DNA from: Alphaproteobacteria bacterium
GTDB lineage: Bacteria > Pseudomonadota > Alphaproteobacteria > Rs-D84
Assembly: GCA_015062495.1 (NCBI GenBank)
Contig: SUUN01000001.1
Location: 347,069 to 411,068 of the forward strand
Direction of reading: 5' to 3'
Length of the DNA: 64,000 nucleotides
The notes below the pieces were generated by a model. That model searched no databases and was not told where the DNA came from. It was given only the letters and a program-made list of their open reading frames with translations. This document shows positions 2,798 to 62,887 of this stretch, piece after piece. The position numbers were made by a program, and so were the translations under genes. Every line of letters begins with the position of its first letter. Position 1 is the first letter of the stretch.

Positions 2798-2983
2798 CAA
2801 AAGACCACTCAAACAAGAGTGGTCGGGAGTTGATCAGTTCACATACAGAACCCCATTGCCTTTGGGACAAGCCCTGTTGTATAGCAACGGCATCCCGACC
2901 GGAGTCGGGACATTAGAAGTTGTGGTATGTGGGTGATCAAACCCGTTCTCACTTTTAATGTCGCTTGTGCAATTACTTGCACA
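2798..2983 (-). ncRNA. leader RNA family copy B, upstream of the PLD nuclease
   Basis: Promoter on the minus strand: TTGATT (3016-3011), 16-base spacer, TAGAAT (2994-2989). Outer closing helix 2940-2934 with 2836-2830 (7 bp), inner closing helix 2930-2925 with 2846-2841 (6 bp), separated by a CCC/GAAC internal loop. Inner hairpin CCCGAC/GTCGGG (2909-2904 with 2899-2894). A bulged helix 2890-2884 with 2859-2853 carries TATACAACA on one side and AAA on the other. The strand CCCGACC (2827-2821) overlaps the terminator stem 2823-2817 with 2810-2804 and could pair instead with the inner hairpin arm. Confidence 0.6.
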
Positions 2984-26197: not shown

Positions 26198-26266
26198 ATC
26201 AGTCAGACTGGTATAACATCTGACTGATATTTTCATTTTAAAACCCCGCGTACGCGGGGTAAGTTA
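26198..26266 (-). terminator. two tandem terminators after the histone-like gene
   Basis: On the minus strand, CCCCGCG/CGCGGGG followed by TTTT, then a second inverted repeat, ATCAGTCAGA with TCTGACTGAT, followed by a T run. They isolate the histone-like gene from the capsid gene. Confidence 0.75.
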
Positions 26267-26274
26267 GTTAAAAA

Positions 26275-26754
26275 TTATTTTTTCTTGCAAACTTTTTTTG
26301 CACATGCCTTTTTGGCGCATGGTTTCTTTGCAACTGGTTTTGCCGCTACCTTTTTAACAGCAACTTTCTTTGCAGGTGCTTTTTTTGCAACTGGTTTCGC
26401 TGCTACTTTCTTTGCAGGTGCTTTTTTTGCAACTGGTTTTGCTGCAACTTTCTTTGCAGGTGCTTTCTTTGCAACTGGTTTCGCTGCTACTTTCTTTGCA
26501 GGTGCTTTCTTTGCAACCGGTTTCGCAGCTACTTTTTTTGCAGGTGCTTTCTTTGCAACTGGTTTTGCCGCTGCTTTTTTTGCAGGTGCTTTCTTTGCAA
26601 CTGGTTTCGCCGCTGCTTTCTTTGCAGGTGCTTTCTTTGCAACTGGTTTTGCCGCTGGTTTTTTTGCAGGTGCTTTCTTTGCAACCGGTTTCGCCGCTGG
26701 TTTTTCAGCAACTACTTTTTTTGCGGCTGCTTTTCTTTTGAATAAAAATGCCAT
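26275..26754 (-). CDS. histone H1-like lysine/alanine/proline-repeat protein
   Basis: 159 residues: a short start MAFLFKRK, then about ten copies of a 13-residue unit of the form KPVAKKAPAKKxAA, then a Cys/Lys tail. Such AlgP/Hc-like proteins bind DNA through charge and are disordered. The start at 26754 follows TTAAGGAGAGAAAG. It has its own promoter-like sequence (TTTACT, 17 bases, TAAAAT) and two terminators, although it lies between phage scaffold and capsid genes. The repeated DNA makes its length prone to change. Confidence 0.8.
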   Translation of the reverse strand: MAFLFKRKAAAKKVVAEKPAAKPVAKKAPAKKPAAKPVAKKAPAKKAAAKPVAKKAPAKKAAAKPVAKKAPAKKVAAKPVAKKAPAKKVAAKPVAKKAPAKKVAAKPVAKKAPAKKVAAKPVAKKAPAKKVAVKKVAAKPVAKKPCAKKACAKKVCKKK

Positions 26755-26866
26755 TCTTTCTCTCCTTAATCTAAAAAGTTTTGGACAGAACAAATCTGTT
26801 TTGTTCTTGGTTACATTTTATCGTAATTACAAAACTTAGTAAAGTAGAAAAGTGCATTTATTCAAA

Positions 26867-29385: not shown

Positions 29386-29419
29386 GTTTGTTATTCTAGA
29401 CTATATAATTTTTCATGTC

Positions 29420-29454
29420 CAATAAAAACCGCACTGGAATTGCCTGTGCGGTTT
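29420..29454. repeat. first copy of a 35-bp terminator repeat
   Basis: A 35-base sequence with a CCGCAC/GTGCGG hairpin and flanking A and T runs. It is identical to 30157-30191. The two copies flank the two-gene cassette 29464-30104. Confidence 0.8.
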
Positions 29455-30104: not shown

Positions 30105-30156
30105 ATCAACTCCTTTGAATGCTATACTATATGCTAATACGGTATTTTATGTTTTT

Positions 30157-30191
30157 CAATAAAAACCGCACTGGAATTGCCTGTGCGGTTT
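30157..30191. repeat. second copy of the 35-bp terminator repeat
   Basis: Identical to 29420-29454 over 35 bases. It follows the HTH gene at 30216 as its probable terminator. Confidence 0.8.
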
Positions 30192-30461: not shown

Positions 30462-30609
30462 TTTTCTCTCCCTCTTGGTTATACATCAGGAACAACTTTC
30501 CGTCTGATACAATGTTGATTTTATTCCAGAAAACCGGGCAAAACAACAAGTACCATTTCCTAGGAATAGACAGATTAAATTGACACAAAAAATTTTTTTG
30601 ACAAAACAC

Positions 30610-30833
30610 TTGACGAATCGATTTTAGTGTACTATATTTTAAATCGTCAAAGGGACAAACCCAATGACGGATGTGAAAACATCACGTGGGGACCAGAGGT
30701 TCAGACTCCCTCCTACATTCTCTCTCCTCTGGACTCTGGTGCCCACACCACAGTTTAGAGTGTCCAATTTCTTTTTCTCCTTTCCTTCCTTTCGGGACAC
30801 TCGGAAATACCGCCGGCAACGGCGGTGTTTTTC
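30610..30833 (+). ncRNA. four-hairpin RNA with pyrimidine-rich loops
   Basis: Promoter TTGACG (30610-30615), 17 bases, TATATT (30633-30638). Then come four consecutive hairpins: CGTCA/TGACG (30645-30649 with 30665-30669, inner GGG/CCC), GATGT/ACATC with a GAAA tetraloop (30670-30683), CCAGAGG/CCTCTGG (30693-30699 with 30726-30732, extended by GTGGG/CCCAC), and GAGTGTCC/GGACACTC (30758-30765 with 30795-30802). A CCGCC/GGCGG terminator ends near 30833. The loops of hairpins three and four are almost all C and U, with CUCC and UUCC elements complementary to ribosome sites. It is about 189 nt. No known family recognised. Confidence 0.6.
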
Positions 30834-30872
30834 TTGGCAGATACATTGACTGACTTTTATTTATCATTGTAT

Positions 30873-31078
30873 TTGAATTTATGATTTTTATGGCGTATAA
30901 TATATGGGCATTGGGCGATTTCCAGTGTGGGGCTTAACAACCTCTTGTAGAACGTCGTCAAGACGAAAAACTCCAACTCCTGCGGTTGGAGGGTTGTGAA
31001 TATCCAATAAACAACGCTATTTTCTACAATAGTTGTTAACCTCCAACCGCTTTTGATATTCAATTGCGGTTTTTTGTT
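30873..31078 (+). ncRNA. leader RNA family copy F, upstream of a small HTH gene
   Basis: Promoter TTGAAT (30873-30878), 17 bases, TATAAT (30896-30901). Closing helix TTAACAAC (30934-30941) with GTTGTTAA (31032-31039), a CTC/TA internal loop, TTGTAGAA (30945-30952) with TTCTACAA (31022-31029). Inside: CGTC/GACG (30953-30965), CTCCAAC/GTTGGAG (30971-30991) and GTTGT/ACAAC (30993-31015). The strand CCTCCAACCGC (31040-31050) is complementary over 11 bases to 30982-30992 and also forms the terminator AACCGC/GCGGTT (31045-31071). The two pairings exclude each other. Confidence 0.65.
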
Positions 31079-31101
31079 TCACACAAACAATGGGGGACAA
31101 T

Positions 31102-31317
31102 ATGCGCATCGGACATCAGATAGAAGCCACCAGACAAAAATTGGAAATTCCTGTTTTTAAAATGTGTGACATTTTGGCAATCGAAACCGAGTTGGAATAT
31201 CATAAAATAACAACAGGCTGGATATCATTAACGACATATCAAAAAATTATGTTTATTGCCGCGACCGAACGTCCGCTGGAATTATCCAACACGCAATCCA
31301 AGACGGATTTAGTTTGA
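31102..31317 (+). CDS. small HTH-like protein downstream of leader copy F
   Basis: 71 residues. IGHQIEATRQKLEIPVFKMCDILAI...ITTGWISLTTYQKIMFI is arranged like a short XRE helix-turn-helix, with a five-helix bundle size. I chose ATG 31102, after GGGGGACAAT, over 31090. It starts 24 bases after the leader's terminator. Function is unknown. Confidence 0.55.
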   Translation: MRIGHQIEATRQKLEIPVFKMCDILAIETELEYHKITTGWISLTTYQKIMFIAATERPLELSNTQSKTDLV

Positions 31318-41951: not shown

Positions 41952-42036
41952 AATCCCGCAATGTCCACCCACGCAAACATTCGTTTGCGCGGGGCCCGGA
42001 TGGGGGATTTTTATGAGATATGGACAGGAATATTAC

Positions 42037-42099
42037 GATAAATAAAAGTTTATCTAAGTTTGCCCGTTGGGCAAATTTCGCTAAACTTTTATTTATAGC
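42037..42099. repeat. pair of TAAA-CTTTTA-TTTA hairpin repeats
   Basis: Two copies of a short palindrome in opposite orientation: GATAAA/TTTATC at 42037-42054 and GCTAAA...TTTATAGC at 42080-42099, with a GCCC/GGGC hairpin between. Together they form one 60-base inverted repeat. Other copies are at 55998, 62396 and 62581. Confidence 0.7.
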
Positions 42100-42107
42100 A
42101 GTATAAT

Positions 42108-55740: not shown

Positions 55741-55994
55741 ACGAACAAAAAAACCATCAAAATTTTTTGATGGTCAGGAGGTTCAGAACAATCTTTGGAA
55801 TTGTGTGCTTATTCAATATATTCGCAACCCTCCTGACCCCGTGGGTTCAGGAGTTATTTTCACCGGAACACAAAAAAAGACGCATTTTGCGTCATTAATA
55901 ATCTATTCCGACGCCAAAGCAGAGGTTCTGACACCCCATCAATGCAAAATCACATCGACGCGTGTATTATATGATATAAATATGCCTTTTGCAA
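55741..55994 (-). ncRNA. leader RNA family copy E, upstream of the cysteine-rich pair
   Basis: Promoter TTGCAA (55994-55989), 17 bases, TATAAT (55971-55966). Closing helices CAGAAC (55930-55925) with GTTCTG (55789-55784), and CTTTGG (55919-55914) with CCAAAG (55798-55793), separated by a CTCTG/ATT loop. Inside are GACGC/GCGTC near 55895 and the hairpin CTCCTGA/TCAGGAG (55853-55830), followed by GGTTGCGAATAT, also seen in copy F as GGTTGTGAATAT. CCTCCTGACC (55781-55772) overlaps the terminator CCATCAAAA (55754-55773). The next ATG is about 60 bases on. Confidence 0.6.
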
Positions 55995-55997
55995 ATA

Positions 55998-56019
55998 GTT
56001 AGATAAATAAAAGTTTAAC
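55998..56019. repeat. TAAA-CTTTTA-TTTA hairpin repeat
   Basis: GTTA...TAAC outer arms around TAAA-TAAAAG-TTTA, the same short palindrome as at 42037, 62396 and 62581, here next to the promoter of leader copy E. Confidence 0.6.
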
Positions 56020-56077
56020 GAAGGATTCTTGGCTCAAAAAAAATCCCCCAGATGGGGGATTTTTGTTTTATAAAAAT

Positions 56078-59683: not shown

Positions 59684-59934
59684 TTGATTTTTCGCCATAC
59701 GGACTGTATAATTGCTTTTGAATCCATGGGATATTGGGTTCGGGACTTCGAAAATCCCTTATAGGTTAGATGCAAGTGTTTGCATCGCAAGAAAACAATG
59801 GCAAATGCCATTGCCCCCGACGCTGAACAGGTCGGGTTGTCGTGGTTATACAAAAGGTCTTGGACCAAAAACCACGAGGTCATTAGCCTATATGATTTTT
59901 CGAACTTCCCGACCACCAAGATTTGGTGGTTTTT
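59684..59934 (+). ncRNA. leader RNA family copy C, upstream of the secreted-protein operon
   Basis: Promoter TTGATT (59684-59689), 17 bases, TATAAT (59707-59712). Closing helix TTCGAAAAT (59747-59755) with ATTTTTCGAA (59895-59904), CCC loop, ATAGG (59761-59765) with CCTAT (59887-59891). Inner hairpin CCCGAC/GTCGGG (59816-59836). Bulged helix GTGGT (59842-59846) with ACCAC (59871-59875) around TATACAAAA, GGTC/GACC and AAAA. TTCCCGACC (59906-59914) overlaps the ACCACC/GGTGGT terminator (59912-59934). CGGGA before the closing helix could also pair with TCCCG. Confidence 0.65.
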
Positions 59935-62379: not shown

Positions 62380-62429
62380 ATAAATAAAATACTTAGATAA
62401 ACTTTTATTTATCAAAGTATTTATTTTTA
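62380..62429. repeat. extended TAAA-CTTTTA-TTTA palindrome
   Basis: The core GATAAA-CTTTTA-TTTATC (62396-62413) is extended outward by ATACTT/AAGTAT and then A/T-rich arms to about 50 bases. It lies on the left of the larger inverted repeat. Confidence 0.7.
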
Positions 62430-62439
62430 TTGGCAGGGG

Positions 62440-62554: not shown

Positions 62555-62580
62555 ACCTCTGTTCTTAATTTTTTTTACCC

Positions 62581-62600
62581 CGCTAAACTTTTATTTAGCG
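62581..62600. repeat. TAAA-CTTTTA-TTTA hairpin repeat
   Basis: CGCTAAA and TTTAGCG around CTTTTA, a perfect hairpin. The flanking base pairs differ from those of the other copies but remain paired. Confidence 0.7.
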
Positions 62601-62606
62601 AAGTAA

Positions 62607-62887
62607 TTGAATTTTTGTTGTTGATATCGTATAATTTATTTGAATCCACAGGGATGTGGCATTCGGGACCTGAAAAATCCCTATTGTAGCGGTGCGAATG
62701 CATCGTAATCCGACTGATGAAACAAAATGTCGGCACTGTTTGGTGCCGTGTGTTTTGTGTATAACCCGACTGATTCAACCCGGTCGGGGGTTTGTGGCGA
62801 TACAACAGGGGCTTGCCCCAAAAACCACAAGGTCATTCTACAATATGATTTTTCAATCCCCGACCGCCAATTCCACGGCGGTTTTTT
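62607..62887 (+). ncRNA. leader RNA family copy D, upstream of a secreted cysteine-rich protein
   Basis: Promoter TTGAAT (62607-62612), 17 bases, TATAAT (62630-62635). Closing helices TGAAAAAT (62671-62678) with ATTTTTCA (62848-62855), CCC loop, TATTGTAG (62682-62689) with CTACAATA (62838-62845). Inner hairpin CCCGAC/GTCGGG (62765-62788). Bulged helix TTGTGG (62792-62797) with CCACAA (62825-62830), holding GATACAACA, GGGGC/GCCCC and AAAA. CCCCGACC (62858-62865) overlaps the CCGCC/GGCGG terminator (62864-62887). Variable hairpins lie between 62690 and 62760. Confidence 0.68.

Follow-up and report, generated by a model that had tools for sequence, protein, structure and literature searches.

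Leaders with copy-specific long-range RNA pairing in a gut alphaproteobacterium: probable transcription attenuators on a phage-type immunity-RNA module

Layout of one leader and its competing helices

The window analysed here is a 64-kb stretch from the genome of a gut alphaproteobacterium of the Candidatus Enterousia type (0.90 Mb in 3 contigs, 97.7% complete), which holds about 34 related leaders. Six of these lie within the window, and one of them, copy F (30908-31050), precedes a small gene. The features along copy F, all on the forward strand, are the following.

30873..30901 (+), promoter of sigma70 type, TTGAAT-17-TATAAT, from the sequence; transcription is expected to start at ~30908
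30908..30928 (+), 5' hairpin CATTGG..CCAGTG, from the fold, kept in the family alignments
30929..30952 (+), U strand, consisting of GGGG-C-TTAACAAC (5' strand of P1) and TTGTAGAA (5' strand of P2), from its pairing with M, covariation and permutation
30971..30977 (+), strand a, CTCCAAC, of the inner hairpin P3, which sequesters b; from the fold and exact pairing
30982..30992 (+), strand b, GCGGTTGGAGG, partner of a (OFF) or c (ON); from pairing and family comparison
30993..31015 (+), P4, with the internal-loop motif GUGAAUA...AAUAA(G) common to sRNA-Xcc1; from the gammaproteobacterial alignment and the fold
31016-31033 (+), P5, local hairpin of M when U is unavailable, from the folding model
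31022..31044 (+), M strand, TTCTACAA, GTTGTTAA, CTCC, which pairs with U or else forms P5
31040..31050 (+), strand c, CCTCCAACCGC, partner of b (antiterminator), of the GGGG of U, or start of the terminator
31045..31077 (+), intrinsic terminator T2, from sequence and family comparison
31102..31317 (+), the controlled ORF of 71 aa (MRIGHQIEATRQKLEI...), with an alternative ATG at 31090

The 71-aa protein has no Pfam match; its paralogues are encoded behind two other leaders (L010 and L011), and it belongs to a family of 60-79-aa proteins found behind leaders. A leader peptide (GGAGGGTTGTG AAT ATA...) was considered and rejected, since L013-like copies have CGCG in place of the start codon and keep the P4 stem. 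Upstream of F, the region at ~30600-30835 contains a promoter-like TTGACG...TACTAT, a long hairpin of the GGGACCAGAG...CTCTGGTGCCC type and a terminator (CCGCCGGCAACGGCGGTGTTTTT), with no Rfam match, and a second structured RNA is possible there. The hairpin AAAACCGCACTGGAATTGCCTGTGCGGTTT occurs twice in the window, at 29406-29454 and 30143-30191, with 88% identity between the two, and a tandem array with a 42-bp higher-order period (15/12/15) lies at 26239-26775, located in overlapping ORFs on both strands.

A sequence-only reading of this DNA had noticed three mutually exclusive pairings in copy F, and all three hold. The strands b (30982-30992) and c (31040-31050) form a perfect helix of 11 bp, correct to the base, GTTGGAG at 30985-30991 pairs with CTCCAAC at 30971-30977 in the inner hairpin, and AACCGC at 31045-31050 pairs with GCGGTT at 31066-31071 in the terminator, followed by a U-run; their mutual exclusion is seen in folding models. 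The 11-bp complement alone is too common in shuffled sequence to be decisive, as 26 of 5000 dinucleotide-shuffled versions of the F leader (0.5%) contained a perfect complement of 11 bp or more; the full three-way arrangement with terminator arose in none of the 5000. That reading had passed over a stronger long-range pairing, between 30929-30952 (U) and 31022-31044 (M). As for the terminator/antiterminator switch that it proposed, the attenuator logic is supported by comparative sequence evidence, while the deciding element appears to be U:M, which lies partly outside the stretch it had considered. The leader is neither isolated nor of a metabolite type; it belongs to a large family with kinship to prophage RNAs of the sRNA-Xcc1/C4 type.

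The family in this genome and in the lineage

Searching the window's own genome with blastn gave seven further copies. The covariance model R1, built from seven copies, matched 21 type I leaders in this genome at E<=2e-5, and R2, a second covariance model for the GGTCGGG type built from Enterousia sequences only, matched 13 type II copies at E<=1.2e-6. The copies in the window besides F are listed below.

2818..2900 (-), type II copy, core b-c domain; R2 53.9 bits; the ORF behind it has at least 177 aa
12160..12251 (+), type II copy, core; R2 81.4 bits, RF02221 25.4 bits; the protein encoded behind it resembles, by sequence only, family 2 glycosyltransferases
55770..55959 (-), type I leader of the CAGGAG subtype with terminator-like T1; R1 55.5 bits; the gene behind it encodes a secreted Cys-rich protein
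59830..59917 (+), type II copy, core, the leader starting from ~59720; R2 97.2 bits, RF02221 32.2 bits; upstream of a secreted protein
62782..62868 (+), type II copy D, core, the leader starting from ~62645; R2 94.7 bits, RF02221 38.1 bits; a secreted Cys-rich protein is next

The same competition had been suggested earlier for copies of two other strand types, and these were found as described, with GGTCGGG(G)/C(C)CCGACC in the four type II copies above and GGTCAGGAGG/CCTCCTGACC at 55770-55959 (-). An imperfect inverted repeat around ATAAACTTTTATTTAT occurs in either orientation at 30841-30882, 42029-42104, 55994-56023, 62389-62430 and 62575-62616, often just upstream of leader promoters, the one at 42029-42104 having no leader; it may serve as an operator or belong to a dispersed repeat. 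Outside this genome, an exact motif scan of named genomes identified MAGs of gut alphaproteobacteria, among them Candidatus Enterousia intestinigallinarum and Ca. E. avistercoris, and R1 matches were obtained in 164 of 190 sampled genomes of the order.

Comparison of the sequences establishes the architecture, the covariation and the size of the family. In 110 leaders the order is promoter, 5' hairpin, U, variable hairpins, inner hairpin a:b, P4, M, c, T2, about 25 nt, and ORF. The b:c helix, which is not part of R1, can form in all 110 non-identical leaders (mean duplex -20.3 kcal/mol) and closes a three-stem domain that carries the M strand. It occurs in compensated types (GGUUGGAGG/CCUCCAACC, GGUCAGGAGG/CCUCCUGACC and GGCUGGAGG/CCUCCAGCC), and the strands a, b and c co-vary between copies. 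In 95 of the 110 leaders with a good promoter score, 6-7 nt separate the end of the -10 box from the 5' end of the RNA-model match, control windows further upstream giving lower scores. Intrinsic terminator T2 is present in 104 of 110 alphaproteobacterial leaders compared with 1 of 22 gammaproteobacterial sRNA-Xcc1 loci. Both features that characterise a transcription attenuator are found, namely an intrinsic terminator directly before the gene and an antiterminator helix that competes with it. The loop sequence of P4 is the best-conserved part across all copies, and many copies have NCC(A)-like tails. A terminator-like T1 in the variable region is seen in 33 of 47 leaders of the CAGGAG subtype versus 5 of 58 in the AA subtype, to which F belongs. 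Some CAGGAG-subtype leaders (L021, L022, L025 and L029; ~55860-55900 on the minus strand of the window) have a second terminator-like hairpin, e.g. GACGCAAAATGCGTCTTTTTTT, with GCGTC before it, which could be a second terminator/antiterminator pair.

The dominant element of the leaders, judged from sequence comparison, appears to be the long-range, copy-specific U:M pairing with its very strong covariation. In P1, a part of this pairing, 90.8% of cells are paired, both sides are changed in 9 of 12 pairs, and there are 180 double-changed cells, a number reached in 0 of 500 shuffles, slid controls collapsing as well; since the alignment was fitted to that helix, the permutation test serves as the independent check. 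When the pairing of M with its own U was set against that with U strands taken from other leaders within its subtype, z values of about -25 and -21 were obtained. A U strand was found in every copy tested, and within the window's own genome M pairs best with the U of its own copy in 20 of 21 type I and 8 of 13 type II copies.

The genes behind the leaders encode in many cases Cys-rich proteins without Pfam match. A signal-peptide-like N-terminus was assigned to 75 of 113 downstream proteins by a crude rule that also lets through some false positives, F's own ORF among them. Glycosyltransferases of families 2 and 6 and one HTH_3 protein are found among the other downstream genes, and a Pfam scan of proteins downstream of Enterousia leaders revealed no antirepressor.

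Relation to sRNA-Xcc1 and phage immunity RNAs

An Rfam scan of the whole window returned three tRNAs only, isrK (RF01394) not being matched at its gathering threshold, and in permissive scans all matches were weak with the exception of sRNA-Xcc1 (RF02221). The best RF02221 score in the window's own genome, 49.5 bits for L060, lies below the gathering threshold of 53 bits. Over model positions 1-87 the type I leader L016 reaches 37.9 bits and window copy D 38.1 bits, with E 1.8e-5 each in short searches (261 bases for D). The consensus structure of sRNA-Xcc1, i.e. closing stem, P4 and following hairpin, is present over its full length, and strand b aligns with the 5' strand of the sRNA-Xcc1/C4-type closing stem. 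The similarity is reciprocal, in that R2 matched most of 16 sRNA-Xcc1 loci of other Proteobacteria with E from 2.6e-8 to 0.003, and the aligned Enterousia and sRNA-Xcc1 cores contain the motif GGAGGGcGGUGAAUA...GAAUAAGCCCGC...UUUCGAACCUCC. The shared traits comprise the closing stem, P4 with AAUACAA-hairpin-GAAUAAG, the following hairpin and, in many copies, the acceptor-like NCC(A) tail, whereas the Enterousia leaders are sub-threshold, have T2 added and precede host genes instead of prophage antirepressors, and the type I copies have a shrunken P4. The attC site of integrons, which came into view through the Xanthomonas integron link, was set aside, as the copies come with promoters, terminators and ORFs in a fixed spacing.

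Among 398 sampled genomes of the phylum, 39 have sRNA-Xcc1 above the cut-off. Most of the loci examined have an M strand and a U strand, the latter in most cases lying 75-125 nt before the core; 12 of 22 loci have a strong terminator, and many have an RBS-proximal D strand that repeats U. In the gammaproteobacterial leaders M pairs with both U and D (own -23.1 versus cross -19.1 kcal/mol). In Enterousia this context is found as U in all copies tested, and D is statistical and limited to one subtype. Nine proteins encoded downstream of sRNA-Xcc1 were scanned and have Bro-N (four, one just under the Pfam cut-off), P22_AR_N (two), KilA-N, Phage_pRha and SymE domains. These sRNA-Xcc1 loci (L067-L096) apparently form the middle part of leaders that precede symE or prophage antirepressor genes and are not stand-alone sRNAs. 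Priority is not claimed for this reading of sRNA-Xcc1, the literature compared being open-licence papers; an sRNA-Xcc1/symE cassette has been published (PMC12444791).

Membership among the C4 antisense RNAs was rejected, as the C4 covariance model (RF01695) gave 0 matches in the window's own genome at E<=1. The likeness to C4 RNA of phages P1 and P7 is one of layout, the order U, terminator, three-stem RNA and D/RBS being seen at C4 loci, and the difference is that each Enterousia copy is an attenuator leader fixed before its own gene and ending in an intrinsic terminator. For many copies per genome there is a precedent in Acinetobacter baumannii, with 21 C4-like Group 1 sRNAs (PMC5320573). 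The RNase P site reported in C4-like RNAs is GGW (PMC5320573), and strand b of F begins with GGT, which resembles it. IsrK of prophage Gifsy-1 (PMC4825925) is comparable in having a short terminated form and a read-through mRNA with alternative structures, an upstream strand that pairs with a downstream one, and a small RNA that acts in trans. It differs in that IsrK controls orf45-anrP translation, while the Enterousia terminator lies directly past the M strand. A likeness to the immunity system of phage P4 is drawn from the description in PMC4825925 alone, according to which CI RNA (seqA, seqC) pairs with complementary sequences on both sides and controls premature termination. The published sRNA-Xcc1/symE cassette, IsrK and the C4-like RNAs of A. 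baumannii fit one picture of prophage immunity-RNA leaders.

The b-c domain looks derived from the leaders of prophage antirepressors, or closely related to them, and would here have spread to host genes. Two viral-classed contigs (L216 and L217) were found by scanning IMG/VR for the Enterousia motif; both have the leader before a secreted-protein-like gene, and no antirepressor was found behind these leaders. A phage ancestor was thus not found in the Enterousia lineage, and it is from the distribution that a direction from phage to host is suggested.

Proposed switch, alternatives and meaning

We consider it likely that the F region is the 5' leader of the small gene and acts as a transcription attenuator on a phage-type immunity-RNA module of sRNA-Xcc1/C4 architecture. 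By default, M would pair with the upstream U once it is transcribed, the inner hairpin a:b would stay closed, and the 3' end of c would nucleate T2, giving a stop at ~31077. If some input made U unavailable, perhaps a protein, an M-domain copy acting in trans or a different RNA, M would fold on itself and b would exchange a for c; with b:c formed, T2 could not form and the gene would be transcribed. Action in cis or in trans and excision by RNase P are suggested by the relatives. The general logic of three mutually exclusive helices and an intrinsic terminator is that of known attenuators such as riboswitches and T-boxes, but the deciding helix in Enterousia is a copy-specific long-range RNA pairing and not a conserved ligand or tRNA site.

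The OFF-to-ON flip of the F leader is predicted by folding models, which are equilibrium calculations on short RNAs and not kinetics. In its free state the leader is assigned P(AT)=0.00, P(inner hairpin)=0.96 and P(T2)=0.95; once U is held single-stranded, P(AT) rises to 0.99 and P(T2) falls to 0.01. For nascent RNAs ending just past c, a block of U raises P(AT) from 0.11 or 0.07 to 0.88 or 0.84, and 88 of 97 such RNAs then exceed 0.5; blocking the 5' hairpin left P(AT) unchanged. At equilibrium with T2 present, the U block moves only 40 of 96 leaders past P 0.5, so many copies would have to rely on the order of co-transcriptional folding.

The main control could instead lie in translation, M/c (CCUCC...) masking the Shine-Dalgarno sequence as in IsrK/C4, U:M freeing it, and T2 setting a background level. 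This fits the gammaproteobacterial sRNA-Xcc1 leaders, where M pairs with U and the RBS-proximal D, the precedent of IsrK (PMC4825925), and the CAGGAG subtype, where M:SD complementarity is above permutation (z -3.9, p<0.0002) and SDs with CAGGA are common; such SDs are rare in the other subtype. We nevertheless regard it as unlikely, for in the AA subtype with F the complementarity reaches only p=0.08, and T2, typical of the Enterousia lineage, would stop most transcripts first. It is improbable that the leaders are independent genes for trans-acting sRNAs ending at T2, with the nearby ORFs reached by read-through or marking insertion sites. Although discrete RNAs are known for both sRNA-Xcc1 and the C4-like group, in the latter as products processed from longer transcripts (PMC2996969, PMC5320573), the start codons, which in nearly all copies lie ~48 nt past the RNA, leave no evident room for a second promoter, and U is complementary to M within each copy. 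A ligand-binding riboswitch, with the P4 internal loop (GUGAAUA...GAAUAAG or AUACAACA...AAAA) as aptamer and the remainder as expression platform, seems improbable as well: the conservation of that loop and the promoter-leader-terminator-ORF layout would suit it, but a U:M pairing that is different and self-specific in each copy is odd for one ligand, the P4 motif also occurs in phage antirepressor leaders, and no Rfam riboswitch or T-box model matched in the window. Chance complementarity around an ordinary terminator is hardly credible, since, common as short inverted repeats are, the three-way arrangement never arose in the shuffles and the covariation throughout the family refutes it in practice.

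Under the attenuator reading, each copy has its own U:M code, so the copies should be largely self-specific. A bolder extension, which we hold to be doubtful, is that the M domain excised from a copy in expression binds U on later transcripts from that copy, holds the antiterminator open and thereby locks the gene on. In this genome-reduced bacterium the ~34 leaders would then be near-orthogonal, self-specific switches made from prophage immunity RNAs for surface and secreted proteins, allowing a heritable or stochastic choice without a protein regulator.

If the attenuator reading is right, a phage immunity-RNA leader has been taken over genome-wide for host surface genes and is widespread in the lineage. 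sRNA-Xcc1, which the papers compared describe as a small RNA with an unsettled role, would gain a concrete context as the middle segment of prophage antirepressor leaders, and the family would offer dozens of naturally occurring, near-orthogonal RNA attenuators with a specificity that can be read from the sequence.
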